A model generated the notes under the pieces. The model saw only the letters and a list, made by a program, of their open reading frames with translations. It ran no database searches and had not been told where the DNA came from. This document shows, in pieces, positions 14,317 through 49,543 of a stretch of DNA of 52,383 nt. The stretch is taken from assembly GCA_021817985.1 (NCBI GenBank), contig JAKAFK010000017.1:1-52383 (forward strand), read 5' to 3'. The position numbers and the translations under genes are program-made. This DNA is from Pseudomonadota bacterium (lineage in GTDB: Bacteria; Pseudomonadota; Gammaproteobacteria; Burkholderiales; JAKAFK01). Within the stretch, counting starts at the first letter, position 1; every line of letters starts with the position of its first letter.

Positions 14317-15646
14317 CGAAAGCGGCGCCTCCCAGAACGCTGTCGCCGACGGTGACCGAGCCCCCGTGGAGCTCGGTGAACGCACGCACCAAGGCGAGTC
14401 CCAGCCCCGTTCCCGACAAGGTGCGGGAGGGGTCGACCCGGGTGAAACGGTCGAAGATCTTCTCGCGCATGTCCGGCGGGATGCCGGGACCGTTGTCTTC
14501 CAGCACGAGTTCGACGCTATGCAGCCGGCGCCCGGCGGACAGCCGCACGCGGCCGCCGTTGGGGACATACTTGAGCGCATTGTCGAACAGATTCGACAAC
14601 ACTTGCGCCATCAGTTGGCGATCGCCGCCGATGGTCAGCCCTTCCTCGATGTTGCTTTCCAGCGCGAGGCCGCGCTCTTCCGCGCTATAGGCATAAAGCT
14701 CCACCATCTCCGCCAGGAAGGCCGACAGGTCCAGCATGGTCCTTTTGATCCGCATGCCGCCGGCCTCGGCCTGCCCCAGCGAGAGCAGCGAATTGAAGGT
14801 CATCTGCATCCCCGACAGCTCGTCCAGGACACGCTCGAGCGTCGCACGCGCGGTGGCCGGATCGTCTTGCTGCAAGGCAACCTCGACGTCGGCGCGAAGC
14901 CGGGTGAGCGGACTGCGCAAGTCATGGGCGATATTGTCGCTCACCTGCCGCACCCCTTGCATCAGCCGATCGATGCGATCGAGCATGGCATTCACGTTGA
15001 GCGCCAGCGTCGCAAACTCGTCCGCCCCTTGCACCGGCATGCGGCTCGACAAGTCACCCGATTTGACGATCTTCCGCGCGAGGCGATTGAACGCTTCGAT
15101 GCGCGCGTGGAAACGGTGGGCGACCAGAATGCTCATGGTCACGCCGAGCAGGACGACGAGCCCCTCGACTCGCACGAACACGCGAAAGAAACTGTCTTTG
15201 AGCGCCTGCGCGTCCAGCGAGCTCCGTGCCGCAAAAACGGTCATGCCGCCCAGCCGGAAATCCAGCACCCGCGCATCGAGCGCTGTTCCTTGGGGAGACA
15301 CGACGCTCAGGGCTTGAATCGCGCCCCTGGCCTTCAAGCCGGGAGGCAGCTTGAGATCCCCATCCTCGAACACCACGCGGCCCGTGCCGTCGAGCACGCG
15401 GTAACCGAGGTCGGCCCGTCCGTCGGCGGCGAGTTCATCCTCGATCGACCGGCGCAGCCCGGCAAGCCCCGTGCGGTCCTGCTGAAGGATGAACAGGTTC
15501 TCCTGGCTGCGCAGACTTTGGTCGATCTGGCGCCGCGACATGTCGGACAACTGCAGGCCCAGGTAGCCGAAGATCAGAAGGGAGCCAATCGTGTAGAAAA
15601 GCAGCAGCCCCAGCATGAGCCGGCCGGGAGCGGTGAGCCAGGTCAT
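14279..15646 (-). CDS. OmpR-partner sensor histidine kinase
   Basis: Membrane sensor kinase of 455 residues. Transmembrane segments lie at about 10-31 and 158-177, enclosing a periplasmic region of about 125 residues with no recognisable fold. A HAMP linker follows, then the H-box with phospho-acceptor His241 in IAHDLRSPLT. The catalytic domain has N-box NLFDNALKY, G1 EDNGPGIP and G2 GTGLGLALV. It overlaps the regulator gene by four bases (ATGA), so the pair is co-translated. The stimulus is not deducible. The C-terminal end overlaps the convergent tesA 3' end. Confidence 0.93.
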   Translation of the reverse strand: MTWLTAPGRLMLGLLLFYTIGSLLIFGYLGLQLSDMSRRQIDQSLRSQENLFILQQDRTGLAGLRRSIEDELAADGRADLGYRVLDGTGRVVFEDGDLKLPPGLKARGAIQALSVVSPQGTALDARVLDFRLGGMTVFAARSSLDAQALKDSFFRVFVRVEGLVVLLGVTMSILVAHRFHARIEAFNRLARKIVKSGDLSSRMPVQGADEFATLALNVNAMLDRIDRLMQGVRQVSDNIAHDLRSPLTRLRADVEVALQQDDPATARATLERVLDELSGMQMTFNSLLSLGQAEAGGMRIKRTMLDLSAFLAEMVELYAYSAEERGLALESNIEEGLTIGGDRQLMAQVLSNLFDNALKYVPNGGRVRLSAGRRLHSVELVLEDNGPGIPPDMREKIFDRFTRVDPSRTLSGTGLGLALVRAFTELHGGSVTVGDSVLGGAAFVIVLPAPHLAGA

Positions 15647-16326
15647 CCAGTCGTCCGCAGGACGTATCCGGAGCCTCGCACAGTGTGGAGCAGCGGGGTC
15701 GCGAACTGCTTGTCGATCTTGAAACGCAGCCGGCTGATATGCACGTCAACGACGTTGGTCTGGGGATCGAAGTAAAGATCCCACACGTTTTCCAGGAGCA
15801 TCGTACGGGTCACGACCTGATCCGCATGGCGCACCAGGTATTCCAGGAGCCGGAACTCCCTGGGTTTCAGGGTGATTTCTTGCCCTCCCCGCGAGACGGA
15901 GCGCTTGAGCAAGTCGAGCCTGAGATCCGCCGCCTCCAGCGTCGTGAGCGCCGCCACATCGCTGCCTTGAGCGCGGCGGAGCAGGGCCTCGATACGTGCC
16001 TGCAGCTCGGAAAACGCATAGGGCTTGACCAGATAGTCGTCGCCCCCGGACCGCAGTCCCGCGACCCGGTCATCCACCTCGCCGCGCGCGCTCAGAATCA
16101 GCGCCGGCGTGTGGTAATCGTCCTGACGCAGGCGTTTGAGCAGCGAAAGGCCGTCGAGCTCGGGGAGCATGACGTCGATCAGCCACAGCGCATAGTCGTG
16201 CTCTTGCGCCATCACGAGGCCTTGGCGCCCGTTGAAGGCGATGTCCACCTCGTAGCCGAAACTGCTCAAACCTTTGCGCAGCAGGTCGGCTGCCGTCGCA
16301 TCATCTTCGACAACCAGAACTTTCAT
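15643..16326 (-). CDS. OmpR/PhoB-family response regulator
   Basis: DNA-binding response regulator, 227 residues from the ATG at 16326 (MKVLVVEDD). An in-frame ATG further upstream would add 17 residues that do not belong to the receiver fold. The receiver has Asp8/Asp9, phospho-acceptor Asp51 in LIDVMLPELDG, Ser79 and Lys100. The C-terminal winged helix runs through the usual LKPREFRLLEYL and RLRFKID blocks. It is co-translated with the histidine kinase downstream. The target genes cannot be identified from this window. A palindromic extended -10 (TGCTAGCAT) lies at 16368-16376. Confidence 0.94.
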   Translation of the reverse strand: MKVLVVEDDATAADLLRKGLSSFGYEVDIAFNGRQGLVMAQEHDYALWLIDVMLPELDGLSLLKRLRQDDYHTPALILSARGEVDDRVAGLRSGGDDYLVKPYAFSELQARIEALLRRAQGSDVAALTTLEAADLRLDLLKRSVSRGGQEITLKPREFRLLEYLVRHADQVVTRTMLLENVWDLYFDPQTNVVDVHISRLRFKIDKQFATPLLHTVRGSGYVLRTTG

Positions 16327-16367
16327 GGTCCATAGTCCGTTGAGCGGCGCATTCGCCACACGGCCCG

Positions 16368-16377
16368 ATGCTAGCAT
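16368..16377 (-). promoter_or_regulatory. Possible extended -10 for the two-component operon
   Basis: ATGCTAGCAT is a 10-bp palindrome about 40 bases before the regulator start. On the minus strand it contains TGC-TAGCAT, an extended -10 with 4/6 matches. It could equally be an operator. Evidence is weak. Confidence 0.3.
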
Positions 16378-26833: not shown

Positions 26834-26855
26834 CACTTAACGGACACTTAACGGA
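26834..26855 (+). repeat. Tandem 11-bp direct repeat upstream of flp
   Basis: CACTTAACGGA occurs twice head to tail with no mismatch. The 11-bp period puts both copies on the same face of the helix, as expected for an activator that binds direct repeats. The second copy ends eight bases before a candidate -10. Confidence 0.9.
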
Positions 26856-26869
26856 AGACCCTCTAAACT
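26841..26869 (+). promoter_or_regulatory. Candidate SARP-type promoter for the tad operon
   Basis: CGGACA (-35, 4/6) lies within the tandem repeat, then a 17-base spacer and TAAACT (-10, 4/6). A weak core promoter overlapped by 11-bp direct repeats ending 8 bp before the -10 is the classical layout of SARP-activated promoters. The leader would be about 80 nt. Confidence 0.5.
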
Positions 26870-26954
26870 GCTCGCCGATGGTGGTTCGGCATTTTTGTGC
26901 GGAACCTGTTTTGTGTGTTTTTTTAGACGCGTTATCCCCTGGGAGGAAGTCCAA

Positions 26955-27248
26955 ATGTTGAAGCGGAAATTGCAAGCCGTCCTGAAATCCAGTCGTCAAC
27001 AAGGCCAAGGCATGACCGAATACATCGTCATCGTGGCCCTCGTCGCCATCTCCGCCATCGCCGTCTACGCCATGTTTGGCCAGGACGTGCGCGGGCAGAT
27101 GGCCAGCATGTCGAGCCAGCTTGCGGGCTACGCGGGCACCACAGGCCAGACAGACGCGAAGAACGCAAGAACCGGAGCCAACACGGAAGGCGGTGCGAAG
27201 TACAACCTCGGCAACTATCCGACCAACGCCAAGAACGCGGGCCAGTAA
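26955..27248 (+). CDS. flp: Flp-type major pilin of the Tad system
   Basis: Type IVb/IVc Flp prepilin, 97 residues. The start ATG at 26955 is preceded by GGGAGGAAG. Leader residues 1-17 end in Gly17, and the cleavage site G/QGMTEY carries the required Glu at +5 and Tyr at +6. A hydrophobic helix (IVIVALVAISAIAVYAMFG) follows. The C-terminal 45 residues are Gly/Asn/Thr/Lys-rich, longer than in minimal Flp pilins. It is the first gene of the Tad operon and is likely the filament subunit. It needs a prepilin peptidase that is not encoded in the window. Confidence 0.92.
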   Translation: MLKRKLQAVLKSSRQQGQGMTEYIVIVALVAISAIAVYAMFGQDVRGQMASMSSQLAGYAGTTGQTDAKNARTGANTEGGAKYNLGNYPTNAKNAGQ

Positions 27249-27274: not shown

Positions 27275-28756
27275 ATGGAACCTGTCCGCTTGCCCCGCCG
27301 CCTCCTCGCCCCGACGCCTTCAGGCGCCTGGGGGCGCGAGGCCGGACAGGCATCCGTCTTCGTCGTCGCCACTTTCGGCATTGTGCTGCTCGCCGCGTTT
27401 CTCGTGTACAACACCGGCCGACAGGTGGTCACCAAGGTTCATATGCAGAACACGGCGGACTCCGCCGCCTACAGCGGCTCTGTGATGCTGGCGCGCGCTT
27501 ACAACTTCGCCGCCTATTCCAATCGCGCCATGGTCGCCAACCAGGTGGCCATAGCGCAGCTCGTCGGACTGACGTCCTGGTCGCGCTACTACTGCACCAT
27601 TTACAACGCAGAATGCGGCGATTACCCGTCCCCCCCCGGGTCTGAGGGCGCCTATGAAGAAATCACGGCCGAATTCGATGCCTACTTCAACGGCGACGCG
27701 CAGCCGGCCACGGATGTCATAAATGGATATGCGGAACCCACCCAGACGCTATTCGATACGATCAATAATGGCGCCGGCCCGATCATCACCGTGCTGGACG
27801 GCATCAACAAGGCTTTGAGCGATGCCTCCCTGGCCTACTACGACGCGACGCTCGCCGATCTTGGGCTTGGCCTCGCCAACGCAGGCCCGCTCGCAACGAT
27901 CGTGCGGGCCAACGACCCGAACGCGCAGATCAGTCAATTCGGATTGGGCGTACTCACCGCCGATATCGCACAAATCAAAAGCTTTGTGACGCGATACACA
28001 CCGCTCGACAACCAGAACGATCCCAACAACCGTTTTCATCAGGTGGTCGTCAACAGCCTGGACCCGTTTTCCAGCGGCCGATCAAGCACGGAAACACCGC
28101 CATTTCCGCTCTTTGCGGCAGGCTCATGCCTGGGCGATGGCGACGGCTTCTTCACGATGGGGGCCATCTACAACGGCTCCACAACCCTCTCCAACGACAA
28201 TACGACCTGGAGCGCGAAGGACGCCGCCAACTTCATCGGAGGCGGCGTGTGCATCATCCAGGTCCCCACGCCAGTCGGCGACATTCCGGTGCCCATTCCT
28301 CTCGTGGGCTACGCCTACGACAGCAACCAAGCCTATGCCGGGTCGTCAACCTCCGCCAATACCCTATATAAAGTTCCCGATAGCACCTACAGCGGTTTGC
28401 AGCCCTATTACGACGTCTCCAACCTGAAGGGAAACGACTGGGTCTCTCCCACGCTCACCCTCTTCATCTCGCGCGCGACCAGCACCATCGCCACCACCCA
28501 ATATGCGAAGAGCGCGATCGGGGCACCGCAGGGCACAGCTCAGAATGGCAGCTTGCCCGTGCTCAACATGACCGACGCCGACAAGGGGAACGTGATGGTC
28601 TCCTCAGCCTCGTCGGAGGCTTACTTCGCACGTCCGCTATCGGCGTGGCAGCTCGGCGGACAAACGGTGTATGGCAATCTGTTCAACCCCTACTGGGAAG
28701 CGCGCCTCGTTCCCACCTCGGCGGCCTTGCAGGCGGCTGCGGCGGCGGCGCAATAG
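27275..28756 (+). CDS. TadG-like protein of the Tad locus
   Basis: A 493-residue protein with an N-terminal Tad-like segment: GQASVFVVATFGIVLLAAF (residues 24-42), then VYNTGRQVVTKVHMQNTADSAAYSGS, typical of TadG/TadE-like membrane proteins. There is no Glu at +5 after Gly24, so it is probably not a cleaved prepilin. The long remainder is Asn/Thr/Ser/Gly-rich, presumably extracytoplasmic. It could be a tip or surface component of the filament (inference). It lies 26 bases after flp in the same operon. No von Willebrand domain is evident, unlike many TadG proteins. Confidence 0.75.
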   Translation: MEPVRLPRRLLAPTPSGAWGREAGQASVFVVATFGIVLLAAFLVYNTGRQVVTKVHMQNTADSAAYSGSVMLARAYNFAAYSNRAMVANQVAIAQLVGLTSWSRYYCTIYNAECGDYPSPPGSEGAYEEITAEFDAYFNGDAQPATDVINGYAEPTQTLFDTINNGAGPIITVLDGINKALSDASLAYYDATLADLGLGLANAGPLATIVRANDPNAQISQFGLGVLTADIAQIKSFVTRYTPLDNQNDPNNRFHQVVVNSLDPFSSGRSSTETPPFPLFAAGSCLGDGDGFFTMGAIYNGSTTLSNDNTTWSAKDAANFIGGGVCIIQVPTPVGDIPVPIPLVGYAYDSNQAYAGSSTSANTLYKVPDSTYSGLQPYYDVSNLKGNDWVSPTLTLFISRATSTIATTQYAKSAIGAPQGTAQNGSLPVLNMTDADKGNVMVSSASSEAYFARPLSAWQLGGQTVYGNLFNPYWEARLVPTSAALQAAAAAAQ

Positions 28757-28765
28757 GGGCGAGCC

Positions 28766-30091
28766 ATGAACAACGCACCGACGCCGCTCGCCACCGGCCC
28801 CAGTTCGCCCTCACGCACGCCGTCCAGATTGCGCCGGGCGAGAGTCTCCGGCCCCGCCACTCAGCGCGGCCAGTCGACGACGGAGATGGCGATTGCCGGG
28901 CTCTTGCTGCTTGTCCCCGCCTTCCTGCTCATACCCCTCATCGGCAAGCTGATCGACTTCAAGACCACCAGTCTGCAGGCCGCCCGCTATGCGGCCTTCG
29001 AGCGCACGGTGACGAGCGACGCCGCGTCCGTGCGCGGCGCAAACTTCGCACAACTGACGAACACCGACCTGCAAAACGGGACCTTGATGCGCTTCTTCAG
29101 CGCAAACGGCGGGACCCTGAGCGCCACCCAGAATAGCTCTACCAGCGCCTTCGCACCCCGTTATTTGTGGGTCGACCAATCGCTCAAGCCTTTCATGCCG
29201 AGCGCGAGCGACGGCAGCGTCAGCACTGCCCAATCCGGGAGCCCGGCGATCGCCGACCAGACCCTCGGGACGATCCTTCAAGCGCTGAACGATCTTTCGG
29301 TGGGCTTCGACTGGAATGCCAACGGCTATTACACCGCTGCCGTGAGCGCCACCGCGCAACTGCCGGCGAACGTCGGATCATGGGGCGGGAAGGCGCTCAC
29401 CCTCCCCTACGACGCCAACCCGCTCAAGTTTGCGTCCTCCGATACCCTGCTCACGGATTCGAATAGCGCCACCGGCTCGGATTACGTCAAGAGCCAGGTG
29501 TCGAAAGCCGTGCCCACCAGTCTCGCAAGTTTTCTTACTGGCGCGTTGAGCTTGGTCAGCATAGTGGTACCCGACTTGAGCGGGCTCAAGCCCGGGTATG
29601 TCCTGGTCAACAGCCCCCAGGAAATCCCCTGCGACCGCCTGAGCGGAGGCTGCAGCGGCGGCACCACCGGACCCGGAACCAGCACGGTCCCCCAGAGCAC
29701 GATCGACAGCGTCGAGACGCAAATGCAAACACAGGGATACACATTGCAATCGCAAACAACCAACTCGGATGGCAGCGTCACGCTGACTTTTGTGGACGGC
29801 GCCAGCACCGTGCCCGTCACGCTGGAGCCGAGCGGCGGGGCTGCGGGAGGCAGCTCGACGACGACCCAGCAAAGCACCGAAAACGTCTACAGCACCGCGG
29901 TGACCTATTACAACAGCCTCACCAGCGCGGCCCAGGGCTGGAGCGGGGGTCCCCTCCCCGCGTTGACGGACACCGGCGTCACGAGCTGGCAGATGACGTT
30001 CACGAAAACGATTTCAAACGCCACCGAAACCATGAATGTGGGCATTGCCGCCACCTCTGGCGGCAGCACCGTGACCATCACAACGAGCTGA
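28766..30091 (+). CDS. Large TadE-like pseudopilin
   Basis: A 441-residue protein with a 35-residue basic leader, a G/QSTTEM cleavage-like site (Glu at +5, Met instead of Tyr at +6), and a hydrophobic helix (MAIAGLLLLVPAFLLIPLIG). KTTSLQAARYAAFER follows, which matches the TadE pattern. The exported part is low in charge and rich in Ser/Thr/Gly/Gln. It has one Cys pair (CDRLSGGC) around residues 286-293. It is much larger than normal TadE (about 200 residues). It is probably a processed minor pilin. It lies nine bases after the TadG-like gene. Confidence 0.72.
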   Translation: MNNAPTPLATGPSSPSRTPSRLRRARVSGPATQRGQSTTEMAIAGLLLLVPAFLLIPLIGKLIDFKTTSLQAARYAAFERTVTSDAASVRGANFAQLTNTDLQNGTLMRFFSANGGTLSATQNSSTSAFAPRYLWVDQSLKPFMPSASDGSVSTAQSGSPAIADQTLGTILQALNDLSVGFDWNANGYYTAAVSATAQLPANVGSWGGKALTLPYDANPLKFASSDTLLTDSNSATGSDYVKSQVSKAVPTSLASFLTGALSLVSIVVPDLSGLKPGYVLVNSPQEIPCDRLSGGCSGGTTGPGTSTVPQSTIDSVETQMQTQGYTLQSQTTNSDGSVTLTFVDGASTVPVTLEPSGGAAGGSSTTTQQSTENVYSTAVTYYNSLTSAAQGWSGGPLPALTDTGVTSWQMTFTKTISNATETMNVGIAATSGGSTVTITTS

Positions 30092-30098
30092 TTCCGCC

Positions 30099-30857
30099 AT
30101 GCCCCCCTGCCCTCAAACGCCATGCCTGGCCACTCGCCTGATCCGTCCAGTGCGCCTGCGCGCATGCGCCAGCGCGGTTGTCCTCGCATTGGGCCTGGGC
30201 GCCACGCACGCGCGCGCCGATGCCCCGCCCGCCGTGGAATGCCCAGCCGCCCCCATGCCCGCGGGCATGACGCAAAGCCTCGTGGCCCCGCAGGCCGCCA
30301 TCAACGGCATGCCCATGCGCATCGCCCAGATCGACGACAAGAGCCCGCCCTCGGACGTCCTCGCGTGGTACCAGCGCCGCTGGACCCTCGCAGGCGGGCG
30401 GCCCGATTACGTGCAATACCCGCTCGGCGCATGGCAGGTCATCGCCCGGAAAATGGGGTCCTGTTTCTACACGGTACAGGTGCAGTCCTCCTCTACAGGC
30501 ACCACCGGCTTCATCGGCGTGAGCGTTCCCACTCAGGGTGCGGCCCTGGCGGCACGACCTGGCTTTCCGGCTCTCGGCGGAAGCCACACGCTTCTTGATC
30601 TTGAAAGCAAGGACACGGGGAAGGGCGCACACACCTGGCTTTTTGTGAATGACTCCAGCATGAACGAGAACGCGCACTTTTACCTTCAGACGCTGCGCGG
30701 TCTGGGCTGGCGTGAGCAGATGGCACAGACGCTCCAAACCAGCCGGGGGATTGCAGCCACCCTGACCTTCCAAAAGGGCAACCGGACCGCACAGATCGTC
30801 GTGCGTCCCGCCGTGCGCGGAACGGTCGTGCTCGCCACAGAGGTGACCCATGGCTAA
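30099..30857 (+). CDS. Secreted protein of unknown function in the tad operon
   Basis: I do not recognise a family. The protein has 252 residues, a basic N-terminus and a signal-peptide-like hydrophobic stretch (about residues 23-37, ACASAVVLALGLGATHA) with cleavage near ARA. The mature region contains SPPSDVLAWYQRRWTLAGGRP and GSCFYTVQVQSS; the pattern suggests a globular periplasmic or surface protein. It overlaps the second Flp-like gene by eight bases, so it is part of the Tad operon. The position between pilin genes and cpaB suggests a role in filament assembly or export. Confidence 0.65.
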   Translation: MPPCPQTPCLATRLIRPVRLRACASAVVLALGLGATHARADAPPAVECPAAPMPAGMTQSLVAPQAAINGMPMRIAQIDDKSPPSDVLAWYQRRWTLAGGRPDYVQYPLGAWQVIARKMGSCFYTVQVQSSSTGTTGFIGVSVPTQGAALAARPGFPALGGSHTLLDLESKDTGKGAHTWLFVNDSSMNENAHFYLQTLRGLGWREQMAQTLQTSRGIAATLTFQKGNRTAQIVVRPAVRGTVVLATEVTHG

Positions 30858-31065
30858 ACCCCCAATGAGACACGAGAGATCGCGCACACGCCGACGTCAC
30901 GGCGGGCAAGGCATGGCGGAATATCTCGTCGTGGTGATGTTTGCCGTCATCGCCCTCGTCGCGCTGAACACGCCGCTCGGGAGCAACCCGTCGGCGGTGA
31001 GCCAACTGGCGAACGGCATCAAGAGCTTCTGGAGCAACTACTCCTATATCCTGTCGTTACCTTGA
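30850..31065 (+). CDS. Second Flp-like prepilin
   Basis: A 71-residue prepilin-like protein. The basic leader (residues 1-19) ends in Gly19, with cleavage site G/QGMAEY (Glu at +5, Tyr at +6) and helix LVVVMFAVIALVAL. The ribosome-binding site GAGGTGA lies directly before the ATG at 30850. The mature form would be about 52 residues, close to classic Flp size, so it could be either the real major pilin or a minor one. Its start overlaps the preceding secreted-protein gene. Confidence 0.83.
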   Translation: MAKPPMRHERSRTRRRHGGQGMAEYLVVVMFAVIALVALNTPLGSNPSAVSQLANGIKSFWSNYSYILSLP

Positions 31066-31081
31066 GAAAAAAGGGCATGTT

Positions 31082-32095
31082 ATGGCGTTAAAGCTGCCGA
31101 AACCAAATCGTTTCACCGTCATGCTGGGGGTCGCGATAGTCCTCGCGGGTGTTGCGTCGATCCTCACCGTTCGCTACCTGCAAAAGCGCGAGGGGCAATT
31201 CAAGGCGGAAATCACCCGCAAGCTGCAAAAAAATCTGGTCTCCGTGGTCGTGCCGCTCTCGGCGCTGCCCGCCGGTACGGAAGCCACCGCGGACAACATG
31301 GCCGTTCGCCAGGTGCCGGAGGATCTGATCTACCCCGGGGCCATCACCACCGCCCGCTGGTCATCGTACGCCGGCAAGCAGGTCACGCGCTCGGTACCCG
31401 CCGGGCTCCCACTGCTGGCGCGCGACTTCGCGAAGCCCTACGGCGACAATTTCGCGGCCACCATGCCCCCCGACACCCGTGCCATCACCGTCGACGTCGG
31501 TGGCCAGAATCGCGTCGCCGGGTTGATCCGGCCCGGTGACCATGTCGACATCCTCCTCGTGATCAATGGCGGCGGCAGCAGCGGCGGGCAGCTGGTGCCC
31601 ATCATTCGCGGCGCGTTGGTCGTGGCCACGGGCAAGCACATCAAGTTCCTGCCCGTCGAAACCCAAGGCCAGGAGGCGCGCGACGTCGACCGGGCCATGC
31701 GCGAGTATTCCAATCTCACCCTGGAGCTCACGCCCGCGCAGACGGCACGGATCGCCATGGCGCAACAAATCGGCCAGTTGCGGGTCGTGCTCCTGCCGAA
31801 GAAGGCTTTGACCGGGTCATTGGTCCCCGCGGTGGCCGCCGACCAGATCCTGGGCGGTGGGACCGGCACGGGCCCCGGGGCCGCGGTTCAGTACATCGTC
31901 GGCAGTGGGACCGCGAGTCTTTCGAGCCACATGCAAGCCGTCCAGGCAACCGCGGGGGCGGTTCGGGCGAGCGCGAGCGAACCGGGCCCACGGGTGCAAC
32001 AGACCCCGCAAGAGAAAGCAATGAGCGCACTCAAGCAGTTCGTGCAAGACCAGAATTTGGCCACGCAGCAAGCAGAAAAGGGAATGTCACAATGA
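31082..32095 (+). CDS. cpaB: Flp pilus assembly protein CpaB (RcpC)
   Basis: Periplasmic/inner-membrane assembly factor of the Tad system, 337 residues. One N-terminal transmembrane helix (about 13-29) is followed by a SAF-type domain (SVVVPLSALPAGTEATADN, then AITVDVGGQNRVAGLIRPGDHVDILLV), the core of RcpC/CpaB. The C-terminal third is Gly/Ala-rich and ends in a polar helix. The stop overlaps the cpaC start by four bases. CpaB proteins modify or stabilise the pilus near the secretin. Confidence 0.9.
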   Translation: MALKLPKPNRFTVMLGVAIVLAGVASILTVRYLQKREGQFKAEITRKLQKNLVSVVVPLSALPAGTEATADNMAVRQVPEDLIYPGAITTARWSSYAGKQVTRSVPAGLPLLARDFAKPYGDNFAATMPPDTRAITVDVGGQNRVAGLIRPGDHVDILLVINGGGSSGGQLVPIIRGALVVATGKHIKFLPVETQGQEARDVDRAMREYSNLTLELTPAQTARIAMAQQIGQLRVVLLPKKALTGSLVPAVAADQILGGGTGTGPGAAVQYIVGSGTASLSSHMQAVQATAGAVRASASEPGPRVQQTPQEKAMSALKQFVQDQNLATQQAEKGMSQ

Positions 32096-33945
32096 AGGAA
32101 AATAGGCAGACGTTGGGAAGCGCGATCCTGCGCCGCTCGTTGACCGTTGCTCTGGCCCTTCTGATGGGCGCCGGATCCGCGATCGCACAGGCTTCGCCGC
32201 CCGCGGCATCGGCCATCCGCGAGCACTCGCTGACGATGTACGACGGCCAGGTCCTGGTCCTGCCTGTCGCCGGCGCGCATCGAATTGCGATCGGCAACGG
32301 CAAGATCCTGGGGGCGACGGCACTCAAGCACCATCTGCTCCTCATGGGCACCGGCACGGGGACAACAGATCTTTATGTGTGGACCAAACATGGCGGCGTG
32401 ATGGCCTGGCACGTCTTCCTCGACGACCACGACAACAGCCAGACCTACCAACAGCTCAAGGCCGTGCTGGGCAGCGTGCCCGGCCTCGAAGTGCAAGACG
32501 CGGGCGGCCGCGTGGTGCTCGCCGGCAATCTCAATCCTGCCGATGCCAAGCTGGTCGCGCGCGTTGCGAAGACCTTCCCGGGCACGGTGGACATGGCGAG
32601 GGCCAGCGACGTCAGGATGAAGCGCATGGTCTACCTGGATGTCCAGGTCGTCGACTTCAAGAAGTCCGCGCTCAGCAGTCTCGGCGTCCAATGGCAGACG
32701 AGCATGGCCGGCCCGTCCCTTGGGTTGGTGGGTGACTTCTATGCCAACAACAACATCTACCGCATGGGCAACGTGTCCCAGGGCGGCGGCGGAAACACGT
32801 TGAACGGCGTGGTCTCCGGCCAACCGGGGCCCCTCAACGGCTTGCCCTTGCACATCAATCCGATGGCGACCTATTTCGGCTTGGTGACGACGCTCACCTC
32901 CCAGATCAATCTGGCGGAGCAAAACGGCGGTGCGTACGTCCTTGCGAACCCCCAACTGAGCACCCGCAGCGGCGAGACCGCGCGCTTCCTCGCCGGCGGC
33001 GAAGTCCCGATCCCCATCTCCAGCGCACTGGGACAGACTTCTGTCATTTACAAGAAATACGGGGTGATGCTGAACATCCAGCCGACCGCCGATCGCCACG
33101 GCAACATTTTGGCCAGCATCAACACGGAAGTCAGCCAAATCGACCCCTCCGTGAACATCAACGGCTATCCAGGCTTCATGACGCGCAAGACGCAGTCGGT
33201 GGTCAACGTGCACAGCGGCCAGACCATCGTGCTCTCCGGCCTCATGCACTCCGTGGGCTCCGATACGATCAACAAGTTCCCCTGGCTGGGCGACATCCCG
33301 GTGCTCGGGTGGCTGTTCAAATCCAAGGATTTCCAGGCCTCGCGCAGTGAACTCGTCATCTTCGTGACGCCGGTGGTGTTCAACCCGGAATCGGCGGTCA
33401 ACCAGGAGGCGGTCGGACGGGCGAGGACGATCATCCACGGCTTCAACGACATGGCAGGCAAAGGGCTGTACATGCCGGGGTTCGGGGTCGGTCCCGGGTC
33501 GCACCCGCAACCGCCTGTCGCCAAGACGACGACGCCGTCTGCAGGCATGCCCCAGCCGATGGCCGCCGGCGCGCCGACGCAGGTTCCGGCGCATCCCCGG
33601 CCGGCTCCCGCCCAAACGTCCGCGGCCGTCGCGCCCGTGACAGCGCCGGCCAAGGCGGCGCAACAGCCTCCCGCACCTGCGGCGGTGCCCGCCGTGAAGA
33701 CCTCCTCGGCCGCCTCCGCGCCCGCAGGCGCCCCCAAGCAGGCGCCGACCGCCGACGCCCTGCCGAAGACGCCCGCCCCGGGGCTGCCCGCGACCCCGGC
33801 CTCCGCGGCCGCCGGTCCCTCGGCGGCCCAGCGGCCGCAGTCGGTGACACTGGCAGCCGATGTGGCCGCGACGATTCCCTCGCCGAATGCCACGCAGGCC
33901 ACGAAACCGTCCTCGGCCGCCGCGACAGCGGCCGCGCAGCCATAG
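32092..33945 (+). CDS. cpaC: Tad secretin CpaC (RcpA) with long Ala/Pro tail
   Basis: Outer-membrane secretin of the Tad system, 617 residues, with a signal peptide ending near AIAQA. The N-terminal T2SS-like N domain (residues about 45-105) is followed by BON/N1-like repeats and the secretin domain with VYLDVQVVDFKKSALSSLG, GGEVPIPI and SGLMHSVGSD. These match RcpA/CpaC. After about residue 455 the protein continues for some 160 residues of Ala/Pro/Thr-rich low-complexity sequence, which is unusual for a secretin and may be a flexible extension. It overlaps cpaB and lies 12 bases before cpaF. Confidence 0.93.
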   Translation: MKENRQTLGSAILRRSLTVALALLMGAGSAIAQASPPAASAIREHSLTMYDGQVLVLPVAGAHRIAIGNGKILGATALKHHLLLMGTGTGTTDLYVWTKHGGVMAWHVFLDDHDNSQTYQQLKAVLGSVPGLEVQDAGGRVVLAGNLNPADAKLVARVAKTFPGTVDMARASDVRMKRMVYLDVQVVDFKKSALSSLGVQWQTSMAGPSLGLVGDFYANNNIYRMGNVSQGGGGNTLNGVVSGQPGPLNGLPLHINPMATYFGLVTTLTSQINLAEQNGGAYVLANPQLSTRSGETARFLAGGEVPIPISSALGQTSVIYKKYGVMLNIQPTADRHGNILASINTEVSQIDPSVNINGYPGFMTRKTQSVVNVHSGQTIVLSGLMHSVGSDTINKFPWLGDIPVLGWLFKSKDFQASRSELVIFVTPVVFNPESAVNQEAVGRARTIIHGFNDMAGKGLYMPGFGVGPGSHPQPPVAKTTTPSAGMPQPMAAGAPTQVPAHPRPAPAQTSAAVAPVTAPAKAAQQPPAPAAVPAVKTSSAASAPAGAPKQAPTADALPKTPAPGLPATPASAAAGPSAAQRPQSVTLAADVAATIPSPNATQATKPSSAAATAAAQP

Positions 33946-33957
33946 AGGGAGGAGGCC

Positions 33958-35643
33958 ATGTTTCGCATTAATGTGACGAATCCGCGCGGCAAGATGGAGA
34001 CCACCGACTGCGCGGCGAGCGCATCGGTGGGCAAATCGGATGAGAACCTCGTTCTTTTGCAGGGCTGGCAGGTGGCCAAGAAGCATGCAACCCTATATCA
34101 GAACGACCAGTCGATGTTTGTCAAGGACGAGGGCAGTTCGCACGGGACGCGGGTCAACGGCAAAAAGATCGCCGGCGTCTACGGCCCCTTGCGCGCCAGC
34201 GACATGATCGAGATCGGCGCCTACACGATCACCGTCGAAATTCTCAACCAAGGGGCCGCTGAAGCGCCCGGCGCCCACGCCGAGATGCCCGCCCCCGCCG
34301 CCGTGCGGGTCGAGGCGCCGACGCCCGCGCCCGCGCCGCAAGCCGCACAGTCCGGGGACTCGCAGCGCTTCGCCACCTTGCGCCTCATTCAGGAACGCCT
34401 GATCTCGCGCATGGACTTTCGGCGAATCGACACGAGCCAGATGGGCGAGACGGAGCTGCGCCAGCGCACGCGCGAACTCATTGAGGAGATCATCGCCGAG
34501 GATCCCGCGATGTCCGTCGACCCCGACCGCGACGGGCTCGTGCAGTCCGCCTTGCACGAGGCGGTCGGCCTGGGTCCCCTCGAAGTGCTCCTGGCCGACG
34601 ACAGCGTCAGCGAGGTCATGGTCAACCGCCACGATCAAGTCTTCGTCGAGCGCGGAGGACGGCTCATGCCATCCGACATCGTCTTCTCGAGCGACAAGGC
34701 GGTGCTCTCGGCCATCGAGCGGATCATTGCGCCGCTGGGGCGGCGAATCGACGAATCGTCGCCCATGGTGGACGGGCGCCTCAAGGACGGTTCGCGCGTC
34801 AACGCCATCATCCCGCCCCTCGCGCTGAAAGGCCCGTGCATCACCATCCGCAAATTCTCGAAGCGCCGCCTGAACGACGACGACATGGTGGGCTTCAACT
34901 CCGCAAACAGGCCCATGATGGCGTTCTTGCGCCTTGCCGTGGAGCAGCGCCGCAACATCCTGATCTCCGGCGGCACGGGGTCGGGCAAGACCACGCTCCT
35001 CAACATCCTCTCGAACTTCATTCCCGATGGGCAGCGTGTCGTGACCATCGAGGATGCGGCCGAATTGCGCCTCTACCAGCCCAATCTGGTTTCCATGGAA
35101 GCGCGTCCCGCCAATATCGAGGGACAGGGCGCAGTCACGATCCGCGACCTTGTCCGCAACAGCCTGCGCATGCGGCCGGACCGAATCGTGGTCGGCGAAT
35201 GCCGCGGCGGCGAAGCCCTCGACATGCTGCAGGCGATGAACACCGGCCACGACGGCTCGCTCACCACGGTACATGCCAACACGCCGCGCGACACGCTGTC
35301 CCGGCTGGAGGTGATGGTCTTGATGGCCGGCATGGATCTGCCGATACAGGCCATCCGCCAGCAGATTGCCTCCGCGGTGAATATCATCGTCCAGCAGACC
35401 CGCTTCTCCTGCGGCAGCCGCAAGATCACCTATGTCACCGAAGTGACGGGCATGGAAAACGGCGTGATCCAGCTTCAGGATCTTTTCCTTTTCCAGCAGC
35501 AAGGCTACGGGCCAGACGGAAAGATTCAGGGCAAGTTCGTCGCCACCGGACGAATTCCCGAATTTTACGAGGACCTGCAGCGCCGCGGCATCGAAGTCGA
35601 TCGCAACATCTTCTTTCAGGACAAGGACGGAGGTCGGTTGTGA
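33958..35643 (+). CDS. cpaF: Tad ATPase CpaF (TadA) with N-terminal FHA domain
   Basis: Secretion ATPase driving pilus assembly and retraction in Tad systems, 561 residues. Residues 1-95 form a forkhead-associated-like domain (VGKSDEN, AKKHATL, SSHGTRVNG). Residues that normally contact phosphothreonine are changed: Arg to Lys26, Ser to Ala40, Asn to His62. His43 and Asn67 remain. A Pro/Ala linker follows. The CpaF domain has GPLEVLLADDSVSEVMVN, Walker A GGTGSGKT, the Asp box VTIEDAAELRL and Walker B RIVVGECRGGEA. A GGGAGG-like ribosome-binding site precedes the ATG. tadB overlaps the stop codon. Confidence 0.94.
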   Translation: MFRINVTNPRGKMETTDCAASASVGKSDENLVLLQGWQVAKKHATLYQNDQSMFVKDEGSSHGTRVNGKKIAGVYGPLRASDMIEIGAYTITVEILNQGAAEAPGAHAEMPAPAAVRVEAPTPAPAPQAAQSGDSQRFATLRLIQERLISRMDFRRIDTSQMGETELRQRTRELIEEIIAEDPAMSVDPDRDGLVQSALHEAVGLGPLEVLLADDSVSEVMVNRHDQVFVERGGRLMPSDIVFSSDKAVLSAIERIIAPLGRRIDESSPMVDGRLKDGSRVNAIIPPLALKGPCITIRKFSKRRLNDDDMVGFNSANRPMMAFLRLAVEQRRNILISGGTGSGKTTLLNILSNFIPDGQRVVTIEDAAELRLYQPNLVSMEARPANIEGQGAVTIRDLVRNSLRMRPDRIVVGECRGGEALDMLQAMNTGHDGSLTTVHANTPRDTLSRLEVMVLMAGMDLPIQAIRQQIASAVNIIVQQTRFSCGSRKITYVTEVTGMENGVIQLQDLFLFQQQGYGPDGKIQGKFVATGRIPEFYEDLQRRGIEVDRNIFFQDKDGGRL

Positions 35644-36500
35644 ACGGCTCGACTACCTTGTGGGTCATCGGCGGCGTGGCCTTCGCGGCGATCGTCATGT
35701 TGTTCGTCGTGCTGTATCAGGCCCTGGGGCTCGGCGCGCGCTGGCAGAAGGAGCGGTTGCAGGAGACGGCGCAGCGCGATCTTGCCGACCTTTTCGTCTT
35801 CGTCGACTTCAACCGGCTCGCCTACGTGCAGTTCGCCGCCTACCTGCTGGTACCCGTGGCCGTCTGGGTGATCACCCAGAACCCGGTGTTCACCGCAGCC
35901 GCCATACCTCTGCCATTCTTCGCGCCGAAGTTCGTGGTGGGCCTCATGCGCAAGCGGCGGCTCAAGGCGTTCGTCAACCAGTTCCCGGACGCCTTGATGA
36001 TGCTCTCCGCCTCCTTGCGCGCGGGCGTGAGCCTCGCCGTGGCTCTGGAGAATCTGGTCAACGAGACCAAGCCGCCACTCAGCCAGGAATTCGCCCTCAT
36101 GCTGCGCGCCCAGCGCCTGGGCGCGAGCTTCGAGGACTCGCTGAAGGACATGGAGAAACGCCTGCCCGTTCAGGAATTTTTGCTGTTTTCCGCCGGCCTG
36201 CGCATCGCGCGTGAAACCGGTGGCAACCTTGCGGAAATGCTGGAATCGCTCGCGGACACCATGTATCGCAAGCTGCAGGTCGAAGGCAAGATCGACAGCC
36301 TGACGTCGCAAGGCAAGATCCAGGGCCTGGTCATGGCGGCCCTTCCGCTGCTTCTCATGTTCGTGCTTGATCTCATGCAGCCTCAATCCATGTATCCGCT
36401 CTTCCACAGCATGACCGGCTGGATCACGCTTGCCGGCGTCGCCTTCATGGAAGTCATGGGCTGGCTGGGCATTCGGCGCATTACGGATATCGACGTATGA
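35640..36500 (+). CDS. tadB: Tad inner-membrane protein TadB
   Basis: Polytopic GspF-type platform protein, 286 residues. The start is GTG at 35640, overlapping the cpaF stop, with GGAGG seven bases before it. No ATG gives the first membrane helix (TLWVIGGVAFAAIVMLFVVLY). The T2SSF domain contains FPDALMMLSASLRAGVSLAVALE and FLLFSAGLRIARETGGNLAEML, typical of TadB. It works with TadC next to it. The arrangement cpaF-tadB-tadC with overlaps is standard. Confidence 0.92.
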   Translation: MNGSTTLWVIGGVAFAAIVMLFVVLYQALGLGARWQKERLQETAQRDLADLFVFVDFNRLAYVQFAAYLLVPVAVWVITQNPVFTAAAIPLPFFAPKFVVGLMRKRRLKAFVNQFPDALMMLSASLRAGVSLAVALENLVNETKPPLSQEFALMLRAQRLGASFEDSLKDMEKRLPVQEFLLFSAGLRIARETGGNLAEMLESLADTMYRKLQVEGKIDSLTSQGKIQGLVMAALPLLLMFVLDLMQPQSMYPLFHSMTGWITLAGVAFMEVMGWLGIRRITDIDV

Positions 36501-37375
36501 TCTGGTACATTGTCATCGGCATCGCCGTTGCGGCGGCCATCGTTCTCGTGGTGCTGGGCCTCGCGGAAATGCAATGGCAGATCCCCGAAGAGGAGCGCGA
36601 GTATCTCGACCCCCTCCCCTTCATCCTGCGCCTGTTCTGGCCGCTCATCCGCTTTGTCGCGCACTATGTCGGCGCGCGCATGCCCGCGCCGTGGCTGGAG
36701 GCGGTACACCGGCGACTCGCCCGTTCCGGGGCCAACTACATGATGAACGCCGAGGAGTTCTTCGCGGTCATGTTCATCGCGGCCGGCGCCGGCTACGCGT
36801 TCGCCTTCTTCGCCGTCCATTCCCTGGGCGGCCTGCTGGCCTCCGTGGTGCCCTTGCTGCTGGCCGCCATCGGCGCATGGTATCCGTTCCTGTGGCTCGG
36901 CAACCGTTATGCGACCCGCCAGAAGGACATTCTCAAGGCGCTGCCCATGTTCCTGGATTATCTGACCCTCGCCATGGAAGCCGGCCTCAACTTGGCCGGC
37001 GCACTCGCCCAGACCGTCGAGAAGGGGCCTGCCGGGGCGATGCGCCAAGAGCTCTTCCTTGTGCTGCGCGATCTGCGCGCCGGCCTCGGTCGGGCCGACG
37101 CCTTGCGCCGAATGGACAACCGCCTCAAGATCCCGGAGGTCAGCTCCGTGGTCTCCTCCATCATTCAAGCCGAACAGGTCGGGGCCAGCGTGGGCAAGGT
37201 ATTGCGCACGCAGGCGGAAAGGCGGCGCACGGAGCGGTTCCAGCGGGCCGAGAAACTCGCGATGGAGGCGCCGGTGAAACTCATTCTGCCGCTCGTGCTG
37301 TTCATCTTTCCGACGACCTTCATCATCCTTGCCTTCCCCATCATCATGATGATCAAGCAGCAGGGGGTTCTGTGA
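36497..37375 (+). CDS. tadC: Tad inner-membrane protein TadC
   Basis: Second GspF-type platform protein, 292 residues. It starts with a membrane helix (residues about 3-22), has a central pair of helices near 90-140, the T2SSF domain (LPMFLDYLTLAMEAGLNLAGAL and SIIQAEQVGASVGKVLRTQA), and a C-terminal helix IFPTTFIILAFPIIMM. It overlaps tadB by four bases, and DUF192 overlaps it by four. TadB and TadC form the inner-membrane platform. Confidence 0.92.
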   Translation: MIWYIVIGIAVAAAIVLVVLGLAEMQWQIPEEEREYLDPLPFILRLFWPLIRFVAHYVGARMPAPWLEAVHRRLARSGANYMMNAEEFFAVMFIAAGAGYAFAFFAVHSLGGLLASVVPLLLAAIGAWYPFLWLGNRYATRQKDILKALPMFLDYLTLAMEAGLNLAGALAQTVEKGPAGAMRQELFLVLRDLRAGLGRADALRRMDNRLKIPEVSSVVSSIIQAEQVGASVGKVLRTQAERRRTERFQRAEKLAMEAPVKLILPLVLFIFPTTFIILAFPIIMMIKQQGVL

Positions 37376-37722
37376 GGGACGGGGACGTATGCGACGGACA
37401 AGGGCGCGTTCTGGCCGCCGCATACCGGACGGAAAACGCATGGGAGCGCGCGCGCGGGTTGCTCGGGCGCCCGCCCCTGGGCCCCTCGCGAGGATTATGG
37501 ATCGCGCCCTGTGGCTCTGTGCACACCTTCGGCATGGGGTATCCCCTGGATGTCGTCTTCTTGAATCGTGCCGGAACCGTATTGAAGATCGCGGCCGCGG
37601 TGCGTCCGCTCCGCATGGCGTATGCCTCGGGGGCATCCACGGCCCTGGAGTTCGCCGCGGGACAAGCCGCTGCGCTCGGACTGCGCACAGGAATGCAGTT
37701 GACATGGCACGCACGCAATTGA
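37372..37722 (+). CDS. DUF192 protein within the tad operon
   Basis: A 116-residue protein of the DUF192 family, characterised by the block SVHTFGMGYPLDVVFLN and RMAYASGASTALEFAAGQA. The start is GTG at 37372, overlapping the tadC stop (GTGA). Function is unknown; DUF192 genes occur beside tad clusters in other proteobacteria. The 3' end overlaps tadD by 19 bases, which argues that it belongs to the Tad operon. There is no signal peptide in this form, although some family members are lipoproteins or exported. Confidence 0.82.
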   Translation: MRDGDVCDGQGRVLAAAYRTENAWERARGLLGRPPLGPSRGLWIAPCGSVHTFGMGYPLDVVFLNRAGTVLKIAAAVRPLRMAYASGASTALEFAAGQAAALGLRTGMQLTWHARN

Positions 37723-38210
37723 ACCGTTGGGTGGCCGCTCTTGCCGGCTTGGCGCTTGCCGGATGCGCGGCGCAGCCCCCCCTTCTGTCCTTGAGCGCGC
37801 AGGCACAAGCCGCATACAGCCAAGGCGACATCCGGCGCGCCCTGCCGGACTACCAGAAGCTCACGGCGGCCGATCCCGACAATCCCGTCCTGTGGACCCG
37901 GCTCGGCAACCTGTACGCGCACGAGGGCCGGCCCAAGGACGCGCTTCACGCCTACCGCCGTGCCATTCGCCTCGATCCCCAAGACGGCGAAGCCTGGTAC
38001 AACCTGGGGCTCGTCCACCTCAAGCAATCCCAGGCGATATTCGTTCAGGCCTACGCGCTACTGCCGGCAAACGACCCCGCCCGGGCGAGAATCGAGTCCT
38101 TGCTGGCCGCGACCGCATCCCTGTCCGCAGGCACCCGGCGCCATCCCCCGGGCACGCAGGGCGGGATGGTCGCCGCCAAACAGCATACCGACCATGGGAG
38201 ACTGCCGTGA
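37704..38210 (+). CDS. tadD: TPR lipoprotein TadD
   Basis: Outer-membrane pilotin-like lipoprotein of Tad systems, 168 residues. The ATG at 37704 gives a lipoprotein signal with LALAG before Cys21. TPR repeats follow from about residue 34 to 130 (ALPDYQKLTAADPDNPVLW, DALHAYRRAIRLDPQDGEA). The family is thought to assist secretin localisation. It overlaps DUF192 upstream and tadE downstream. The frame is open further upstream inside DUF192, but the lipobox fixes the start. Confidence 0.88.
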   Translation: MARTQLNRWVAALAGLALAGCAAQPPLLSLSAQAQAAYSQGDIRRALPDYQKLTAADPDNPVLWTRLGNLYAHEGRPKDALHAYRRAIRLDPQDGEAWYNLGLVHLKQSQAIFVQAYALLPANDPARARIESLLAATASLSAGTRRHPPGTQGGMVAAKQHTDHGRLP

Positions 38211-38968
38211 AGCCCCCCACCATGGCATCCCTTCGCCGCTTCCCGTTCGGAAGAGGCGAAGCCGGGCAGGCGATGGCCGAGTATCTCATTGTCTTGCCCT
38301 CGCTACTCTTGCTGGTACTGGGCGCCATCCAGTTCGCCCTCGTCTTCATGGCCAAATCCACGCTGGACCTTGCGGCCTTCGACGGTGCCCGCAATGGGAC
38401 GCTCAACAATGCGTCCACGACCTCTATCCGCGAGGGCGTGGCACGCGGCCTGGCGCCGCTCTATCAGAGCGGAATGCCAGTCTCCGGACCCAGCCTGGCA
38501 GGCGTTGCAACGGCCGAGGCAGATGCCCTGTTGGCCGTCGAAGATCCGGTCAAGGTCGATATCGAGCAACTCAATCCATCACCGGCTGCGTTTCAGGATT
38601 TTGCCACGACCATGTCCTTTGCCGATGACAGCGGCAACCTCCAGACGACGAAGGCCATTCCGAACAGCGGCCTACTGTATCAACCGACCACCCCGGGCGC
38701 CCAGTCCAACGAAAGCATCCAGGACGCAAACCTCCTGAAAATTCGTGTGCACTATTGCTACCCGCTCATCGTACCCTTCGTGAACACCACGATCCGCATC
38801 ATCATGTCGGTGGCCGGCGCGCCATCGACATCGTCGTGGGCGCTCTCCCATGCCACCTATATCGGATCCGATACCGGCACGTGGGATCAGGCCTGCTACG
38901 CGAGCGGCGGCATGCCTTTGGCCGCCGACGGAACCGCGCTGATGCAATCCCCGGCCATCCAGAACTAG
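38207..38968 (+). CDS. tadE: TadE pseudopilin
   Basis: TadE-type minor pilin, 253 residues from GTG at 38207 (overlapping the tadD stop); an alternative ATG is at 38222. The cleavage site G/QAMAEY carries Glu +5 and Tyr +6, followed by helix LIVLPSLLLLVLGAIQFALVF and KSTLDLAAFDGAR. This is classical TadE. The exported part has Cys residues near positions 185 and 227. It is the last gene of the Tad operon. It makes four proteins in this operon with class IVb-type cleavage sites. Confidence 0.88.
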   Translation: MKPPTMASLRRFPFGRGEAGQAMAEYLIVLPSLLLLVLGAIQFALVFMAKSTLDLAAFDGARNGTLNNASTTSIREGVARGLAPLYQSGMPVSGPSLAGVATAEADALLAVEDPVKVDIEQLNPSPAAFQDFATTMSFADDSGNLQTTKAIPNSGLLYQPTTPGAQSNESIQDANLLKIRVHYCYPLIVPFVNTTIRIIMSVAGAPSTSSWALSHATYIGSDTGTWDQACYASGGMPLAADGTALMQSPAIQN

Positions 38969-47541: not shown

Positions 47542-48993
47542 TCACGCCTGGGGAGTGGGCAGCGCGTGGGTTGTCGGAGCCGGGAGCCACCGAACAGGGA
47601 TCACAGTGCCACACACCGTGATGACGGTTGCCGGCTCGCCCCGCGCAGACGGGGGCGTCCTTAGAGCCAGGCGCGACACCGCCTCGGTCAGCACGACGCC
47701 ACTTCTTTGATCATTATGCCGTGCGGCGGTACGGGCGATCTGCGGCACGAGGCCCACCGCCAATTTCCCGGATGGATCCACCAGCATCTGCCCACAATCG
47801 ATCCCTAAGAAGATCGGCCGGTGCGGTGTGGCGCCACGACGAAGCGCAAAGGCTGCGGCGAGGCCACGCTCGACGGCATCCTCGGGCAGGGAATGCGCAT
47901 GAAAACGCATCTCGATCACCCCATCCGCCCCCACGTGGAGGAGCCCTCCGTATGCTGGTGCAACCGTTCTCGCAAGGTCCAGGTAATGGACAAGGTGCGC
48001 CTCGATCGCCGCGGCATCCATTTCATGCAGCGGCTTCGCCGGCGCCGCGGCGAGCACGGAGACGAACTGGGGGCGGGTACAGAACGCTTCCGCCTCCACG
48101 TTGGGCTCCATCCAGAAAACGGGCGCAGCCCGTGCACTCTCGCATCCCCGGATGAGCCTGTCGCGCAGGGCGATGATGGCGGACCGGGAGGTGCCCACAT
48201 CTTCCGCCAGTCGCCGGCTGTAGGAATCAAATGTCGCCAAGGCTTCGGCACCGCCGCCGCAAGCTTCGAACTGGCGCATGAGCGCAAGGTGTGCAGCCTC
48301 TCCGAGCGGGCGCGCAATCGCCCATTTCATGGCCCAAAGAAGCGCCTCACGTGCGCCCTTCGACCGGATCATCCCATCGAGAACGGCAGAAAACACGTGA
48401 TCCGCGTTTGCGTCCGCATGTCCGCGCTGACGTGCGACCCACGCGTCCCAATGGCGGCCGACCGACGATTCCGCGGCCAGAAAAGAGCCGCGGTACAGCA
48501 TGGCCACCTCGCCCGCATGCGCTGCCCGGCTCATCGTCGCCGCCCGCTCCATGGCGTCAACGTCAAGCCAGATCGGCGCGGACGGCTTCAGGGCGATCAC
48601 GTCGCGCGTCGCGTGAATATAGTCTGCCGCGGGCCCAAGCCATTTCTTGAGCTGGCATAACGCCTGACGCAGACAGCTGTTGGCGGCCTCTTGGCCGGCA
48701 TGGGGCCAAAGCAGGCGGACAAGCTCATCGCGTTTGACAGGCCGGCCCTCGACGGCCAAGTAGGCGAGCAGCAAACGGACATGCCGGTAGCGCAAGGTAC
48801 GGATTTCGCCATCGACGCTGGCCTGCATTTCGCCGAGCAGGCGAATGGCAAGGCCTTCTGCCGGTTCAGACCATGCGCTCGCCCCCCTTGCCACAACTTC
48901 GCGGTGCGGTAAGGAGCCGGCCGGCAACGGGCTCGCTGATACGGGGAGCACGCAGCACAAATCCCCGGAGCTATGCGGTTTTTGAACTCTCAT
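47542..48993 (-). CDS. SARP/BTAD-type regulator with degenerate cyclase-like domain
   Basis: A 483-residue transcription factor. Residues 48-140 form an OmpR-like winged helix (IRLLGEMQASVDGE, LLAYLAVEGRPVKRDELVRL). Residues 144-290 are a bacterial transcriptional activator (BTAD) domain of SARP/HilA type. Residues 308-445 resemble a class III nucleotidyl cyclase core (APAYGGLLHVGADGVIEM, FLGIDCGQMLV, ARTAARHNDQRSGVVLTEAV). The metal-binding Asp of the usual FADI stretch is replaced by LAAAP, so it should be inactive and may sense a nucleotide. The ATG at 48993 is preferred; an upstream start adds 44 residues. It interrupts the msh operon. Confidence 0.83.
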   Translation of the reverse strand: MRVQKPHSSGDLCCVLPVSASPLPAGSLPHREVVARGASAWSEPAEGLAIRLLGEMQASVDGEIRTLRYRHVRLLLAYLAVEGRPVKRDELVRLLWPHAGQEAANSCLRQALCQLKKWLGPAADYIHATRDVIALKPSAPIWLDVDAMERAATMSRAAHAGEVAMLYRGSFLAAESSVGRHWDAWVARQRGHADANADHVFSAVLDGMIRSKGAREALLWAMKWAIARPLGEAAHLALMRQFEACGGGAEALATFDSYSRRLAEDVGTSRSAIIALRDRLIRGCESARAAPVFWMEPNVEAEAFCTRPQFVSVLAAAPAKPLHEMDAAAIEAHLVHYLDLARTVAPAYGGLLHVGADGVIEMRFHAHSLPEDAVERGLAAAFALRRGATPHRPIFLGIDCGQMLVDPSGKLAVGLVPQIARTAARHNDQRSGVVLTEAVSRLALRTPPSARGEPATVITVCGTVIPVRWLPAPTTHALPTPQA

Positions 48994-49072
48994 CGCAATT
49001 TTTTCTTTGTTATCTTGGACGGAATCGCGTAGCGCGAATCTCTGACACCCTTGCGACACAACCTTAAGGGTC

Positions 49073-49094
49073 GATCGTAAGAAGATCGTAAGAA
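49073..49094. repeat. Tandem 11-bp direct repeat upstream of the SARP-like gene
   Basis: GATCGTAAGAA occurs twice head to tail, followed by a partial third GATC. On the minus strand it reads TTCTTACGATC, sharing CTTA..CG with the flp repeat CACTTAACGGA. It lies 80 bases upstream of the SARP-like start and 450 bases upstream of mshI. No -10 with 8-bp spacing was found on either side. Confidence 0.85.
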
Positions 49095-49098
49095 GATC

Positions 49099-49543
49099 CC
49101 GATCGGTTCCTGCCAATCGCGCCATCGACCTTTTCGTCCAACCGTTGCCATGTCAACACCCGAGGGACGGCGACGTGCCCAAGAATCGAGGCGCGGTCTA
49201 ACGGGACCGGTTCTAACACCAAGGCGAGATCACACTCCCGCAGGGATAAGGGAACGCCGCCGGGCGCCTCTTTTGGGTTGACCCATGCCCCTCTGGCGCG
49301 GCCACCGATAATGTGCTCTAATCCAAACTCGTGGTAGGGTCATGGGCAAGCGCCGTTGGCAGACGCGACAAGGACTTGAGGTTTTGTTGCCGGACGCTTG
49401 ACATTGCGGCGCCGTCCGCGCGGTGAGCGCAACCCATGGCCGTTGCCCGAAATGCGCGGCTTAGGGAACGGCCGCGGGGCGGGCGTGCACACAGGCCGCC
49501 TTCAAGATGGACTCAACAATAGGGAAAAGACATCATCGGCCAC
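49099..49543. other. Non-coding region between the SARP-like gene and mshI
   Basis: No recognisable gene in 445 bases. It presumably holds the promoter for mshI and its partner genes. TTGACC (near 49276) and TTGACA (near 49398) are -35-like, but no -10 lies at a 16-18 base spacing. Divergent control from here is possible. Confidence 0.4.

Follow-up and report, generated by a model that had tools for sequence, protein, structure and literature searches.

Introduction

SARP proteins have been studied almost solely as activators of antibiotic genes in actinobacteria. The promoters they control follow a rule in which 11-bp direct repeats are arranged so that 8 bp separate the 3′ repeat from the -10 and the upstream repeat covers the -35 (PMC10936776). 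The period of the repeats in SARP-type promoters is 11 bp or 22 bp. In the AfsR/afsS system of Streptomyces coelicolor (PDB 8hvr, 8k60; PMC10936776), a poor core promoter carries two such repeats, the upstream one over the -35, and AfsR, which combines an OmpR-type DNA-binding domain with a BTAD, touches bases 1-8 of every 11-bp unit and none of the remaining three. The DNA-backbone contacts of the SARP HTH given as conserved are Q48, W74, P79, T88, R94 and K95 (PMC10936776). In PimR of Streptomyces natalensis, a SARP domain is followed by a cyclase-related region, and heptamer repeats with 4-bp spacers lie close to its own gene (PMC3367932). Outside the SARP proteins, the enterobacterial PmrA box has CTTAAT/G halves, head to tail and 5 bp apart (PMC3973317), and CtrA of Caulobacter drives the Tad-type pilin gene pilA from a TTAA-N7-TTAA site over the -35 (PMC11264516).

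The locus described here lies in a 52-kb stretch of DNA, which was analyzed as a whole (the window). It resembles AfsR/afsS in having two 11-bp direct repeats, with the upstream copy covering the -35 in a poor core promoter, and a regulator with an OmpR-type DNA-binding domain and a BTAD. It differs in its proteobacterial host, in a pilin gene as the predicted target, in its half-site and the residues expected to read it, and in a cyclase-like domain where AfsR has NOD and TPR domains. With PimR it shares the order of SARP domain and cyclase-related region; PimR differs in its AAA domain and in its repeats, three copies of CGGCAAG that lie off the -35, compared with two repeats over the -35 here. 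Both the host and the predicted target are unusual for a SARP.

Results

Genomes compared and features of the locus

The window belongs to a proteobacterial MAG of 3.97 Mb, 96% complete (the host genome, G000), and was compared with a single congeneric genome, the 3.1-Mb MAG DBS2-1.bin34 (the relative, G001). Genome-wide tests were pattern searches. The features are listed in Table 1.

Table 1. Positions in the window of the promoter elements, genes and repeats discussed in the text.
Feature	Position	Strand	Basis and remarks
Upstream 11-bp direct repeat CACTTAACGGA, flp operator (predicted)	26834..26844	+	Letters read directly; conserved in the relative
Downstream 11-bp direct repeat CACTTAACGGA, flp operator (predicted)	26845..26855	+	Letters read directly
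Poor -35 hexamer CGGACA	26841..26846	+	Straddles the junction of both repeat copies; CGGAAA in the relative
-10 hexamer TAAACT	26864..26869	+	8 bp past the repeat in both genomes; TAGAAT in the relative
flp 5′ leader with hairpin and T-rich tract	26883..26931	+	RNA fold
flp pilin gene, first behind the promoter	26955..27248	+	Read directly
tad cluster: TadG-like, RcpC, secretin, FHA-T2SSE ATPase, two T2SSF proteins, TPR protein, TadE	27275..38968	+	
SARP-type regulator, 483 aa: OmpR-type DNA-binding domain, BTAD, cyclase-like C-terminus	47542..48993	-	
Candidate -10 TAAGGT of the regulator gene	49061..49066	-	Alignment; weak consensus; TACGAT in the relative
11-bp direct repeat, TTCTTACGATC twice on the minus strand, before the regulator gene	49073..49098	-	Blind repeat scan and alignment

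A conserved direct repeat over a poor -35 in front of flp

An earlier note on this DNA had described a perfect tandem 11-bp repeat containing a weak -35, followed after 17 bases by TAAACT. Read from the letters, the repeat is exact and the positions of both hexamers were confirmed, with CGGACA lying across the junction of the two copies. CGGACA agrees with TTGACA in 4/6 positions and TAAACT also scores 4/6. A sigma-70 consensus scan accepted no promoter at the flp box, which marks the -35 as poor. From the end of the 22-bp box to the flp start codon (26955) there are 100 bp. A blind scan of the window returned two perfect 11-bp tandem repeats, at 26834-26855 and 49073-49098, and none with a unit of 8-10 or 12-15 bp; any perfect 11-bp tandem duplication was present in 2.3% of simulated 52-kb windows. 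TTAACGG occurs only at the two flp-box positions of the window, and in the 33-kb contig of the relative only at the two syntenic positions.

In the relative, the flp box reads CACTTAACGGA AAGTTAACGGA and ends 8 bp before TAGAAT; the downstream copy keeps its core TTAACGGA, and the first three bases of the copy are changed. The box is 91% identical between the two genomes, compared with 58% for the preceding 60 bp. The -10 has other letters at the same position, and the -35 is worse than in the host. Since box and offset are conserved and the -35 is degraded, selection seems to act on the repeat and on its distance from the -10 rather than on the -35. The earlier note had looked to relatives carrying the regulator for the same repeat before flp, and to its loss as an argument against the idea; in G001, the sole such relative compared, regulator, tad and repeat are all present.

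The gap of 8 bp between the second repeat and the -10, as measured in the earlier note, holds in both genomes, and the core TTAACGGA likewise ends 8 bp before the -10. Together with the 11-bp period and the overlap with the -35, this layout agrees with the published SARP rule, as had been claimed, the match in spacing being only approximate because the frame of the core differs from the contact frame of AfsR. Tandem repeats carry no frame of their own, and the exact spacing should not be pressed. The 8-bp spacing was consequently rejected as proof of SARP over OmpR-type control, the repeat frame being arbitrary and OmpR-type boxes occupying the same place.

Between promoter and gene, the leader can fold into a hairpin, GGUUCGGCAUUUUUGUGCGGAACC, followed by a T-rich tract, which resembles an attenuator or a stabilizing 5′ hairpin. 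Its RNA fold has z = -4.2 in the host; in the relative the shape is similar, not significant, and the outer stem of the hairpin is kept. The first gene behind the promoter had no Pfam match and was named flp from its position before TadG and its pilin-like stretch GQGMTEYIVIVALVAI. Judged by TadG, the closest relatives of the host are proteobacterial MAGs, with Acidithiobacillus and Acidiferrobacter more remote.

The regulator has the domain order of a SARP

The start of the regulator was set at ATG 48993 by comparison with the relative, as the upstream extension has a stop there and the conserved protein opens MRVQKPHS/MKVQKPHS. In Pfam, BTAD scored above the cut-off and Trans_reg_C (the OmpR-type DNA-binding domain) just below it. 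A five-sequence profile matched AfsR in its cryo-EM initiation complex (1.8e-14, residues 39-282) and EmbR (2.1e-9), and residues 328-441 matched the class III cyclase Ma1120 (6e-4). By eye, some of the metal-binding signature usual for catalysis seems to be missing from the latter region. The AlphaFold model is good for approximately residues 45-200 and poor past 240; AfsR and EmbR were the top Foldseek hits, with adenylyl cyclases next, weakly. By its predicted architecture, a winged-helix domain followed directly by a BTAD, the regulator is a SARP. No AAA domain was found in it. The sequence of the cyclase-like region would suggest a non-catalytic sensor domain.

Compared with the HTH of AfsR, the backbone-contacting residues W74, R87, R94 (as K) and K95 are retained, and Q48, P79, T88 and R92 are changed. 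The base-reading pair T88/R92 has become Q/Q in the host and Q/H in the relative, which fits a half-site different from that of AfsR; as these residues differ, the specificity of the regulator is not predictable from AfsR. Near the regulator gene, a block of PilM-like and T2SSM-like genes (49527-51846) is inverted in the relative and adjoins the BTAD gene there.

A related repeat precedes the regulator gene

The second repeat of the blind scan precedes the regulator gene itself, and the aligned sequence of the relative reads TTCTAACGATC CTCTAACGGTA on the coding strand. The candidate -10 sits 8 bp past TTACGA; the distance from repeat to -10 is 7 or 8 bp, by the frame chosen, and the distance from core to -10 differs by 1 bp between the flp and regulator promoters. 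The period is exactly 11 bp at both promoters in both genomes, and T-W-A-C-G-R is common to all half-sites (8/8; two promoters, two genomes).

In the relative, the regulator promoter has TAACGA-N5-TAACGG, matching the flp core TAACGG-N5-TAACGG in 11/12 positions (P = 0.0009 for a simulated 150-bp promoter), and it is the second-best match to this core in the whole 33-kb contig, after flp itself. The host half-sites, TTACGA, reach 8/12, no better than chance for that core. The combined pattern TWACGR-N5-TWACGR was devised after both promoters were known, and only the 11/12 test is unaffected by this; the pattern is nearly unique in both genomes, with two matches in all 3.1 Mb of the relative (one each ahead of flp and the BTAD gene) and four in the host (flp, BTAD gene, and one site each on contigs C42 and C99). 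In the 2-3 kb surrounding the genes of OmpR-type regulators (10 in the relative, 9 in the host), the flp core scored at most 9/12, and in the 300-bp stretch of the window's own response regulator 8/12.

Further occurrences were inspected individually. In the host genome, copies of the BTAD gene's 5′ region (49014-49117) stand before two genes for HAF-repeat-like secreted proteins. The copy on C42 (L104, 4139-5566) keeps the 11-bp repeat and is split by a DDE_5 transposase, and the copy on C103 (L110) retains only the 52-bp right half; a third target or promoter capture is possible. A second BTAD gene on C42 was rejected, as the copy there consists of the split promoter region only, with a different gene downstream. 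On C99 (L105, 2111-2127, minus strand), TAACGG-N5-TAACGG precedes a MocR/GntR-like regulator gene; this site, which has no counterpart in the relative, is due to chance or a further target. A large regulon was dismissed: TTAACN6TTAAC occurs once in the whole 3.97-Mb host genome, TTAAN7TTAA sites have no common consensus, and TTAACGGANNNTTAACGGA with 3 mismatches gave scattered matches only, fewer than the reversed control. The msh operon was dismissed as a target as well, TWACGR-N5-TWACGR being found nowhere else in the window.

Occurrence across tad loci

Nine tad loci outside the genus were compared (L033-L041). TTAA-N7-TTAA before flp was found in 0/9, and a full TTGACA -35 lies there in L033, L036, L037 and L039. 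In eight of the nine genomes there was no BTAD match at E < 1e-3; the genome of L036 has a BTAD relative of 31% identity, which is larger and contains an AAA domain. Eight genomes with the same tad type have neither a detectable BTAD homolog nor the repeat, and three of these eight have TTGACA before flp. Among 399 genomes of the order, a close ortholog of the regulator was found only in the host and the relative, and the remoter BTAD proteins of the order have 29-30% identity. This distribution agrees with regulator and predicted operator occurring together, but with the pair in only two genomes, kinship confounds the co-occurrence.

Discussion

Several explanations of the flp box have to be weighed. 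OmpR-type regulators use the same repeat geometry at the same place in a promoter, and a response regulator of the OmpR/PhoB family might bind the box as a dimer, head to tail, over the -35, activating flp alone or in a cascade with the BTAD gene. The host encodes ten OmpR-type regulators, of which the QseB/PmrA-like one on contig C182 and the TctD/PmrA-like one on C68 are candidates; the two PmrA/QseB-like ones are 93-96% identical in the relative. At flp in the host, CTTAAC-N5-CTTAAC comes near the enterobacterial PmrA box, with CTTAA halves head to tail and a 5-bp spacer (PMC3973317), but the halves end in C, and one half in the relative is GTTAAC. At the regulator promoter CTTAA halves are absent, so that PmrA/QseB-like regulators explain the BTAD promoter less well; the core common to both promoters is TWACGR. 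Further, the repeat lies in none of the gene regions of the OmpR-type regulators, and the TTAA-N7-TTAA sites of the host form no regulon of like sequence. On balance, control by a response regulator appears rather unlikely, although its action on both promoters is the strongest of the rival explanations. The response regulator encoded 10 kb upstream of the box (15643-16377) was rejected; it is CusR/CopR/HprR-like, and this group uses inverted repeats.

The letters of the box also match TTAA-N7-TTAA exactly, the site from which CtrA drives pilA at its -35 (PMC11264516). Binding by a CtrA-like cell-cycle regulator is nevertheless hardly credible: no CtrA ortholog was detected in the 96% complete host, where 0 of the OmpR-type regulators reach the NCBIfam cut-off and other families score better, and TTAA is missing from the related site ahead of the regulator gene. 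Its overlap with the -35 could make the box the operator of a repressor, or the SARP protein could repress flp and itself by covering this hexamer. Against this, the -35 is already poor in both genomes, consistent with a requirement for activation, and SARP proteins are described as activators in the literature consulted; we give repression a slim chance. That the repeat is a functionless chance duplication agrees with one such repeat in roughly 2% of simulated windows, but there are two, both upstream of genes, and conservation in the relative is far above that of the flanks, with an unchanged offset to the -10, making mere chance very improbable.

We consider it probable, judging from sequence comparison, that the 22-bp box is the operator of the SARP-type product of 47542-48993, which would activate flp-tad and its own gene. 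The earlier note had proposed that the BTAD regulator switches on the Tad pilus, and this is supported by a protein with SARP domains, a promoter laid out by the SARP rule, and a related repeat ahead of the regulator gene itself. The last point, which goes beyond the earlier note, strengthens the interpretation independently: the related 11-bp repeat is found before regulator and flp and nowhere else in the relative.

We infer binding, activation, autoregulation and signal sensing by the regulator along the following lines. Two SARP monomers would occupy the 22-bp box as head-to-tail neighbors, comparable to AfsR on the afs box (PMC10936776). The winged-helix activator would cover the defective -35 and keep sigma-70 RNA polymerase at the weak -10, and such recruitment to a promoter without a usable -35 would start expression of flp and of the tad cluster. 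This regulator probably binds 49073-49098 too, resulting in positive autoregulation, and its cyclase-like C-terminal domain may act as a sensory or partner domain.

A SARP acting on pili was not found in the literature searched. We lean somewhat towards the view that a SARP-type activator with a cyclase-like domain, sustaining itself, forms a dedicated Tad-pilus switch and thus a mechanism of Streptomyces antibiotic genes in a Gram-negative bacterium. A pilin gene and its putative regulator with a common operator would provide a small, direct test of the SARP mechanism on proteobacterial RNA polymerase, and the operator pair suggests what controls attachment in this lineage.
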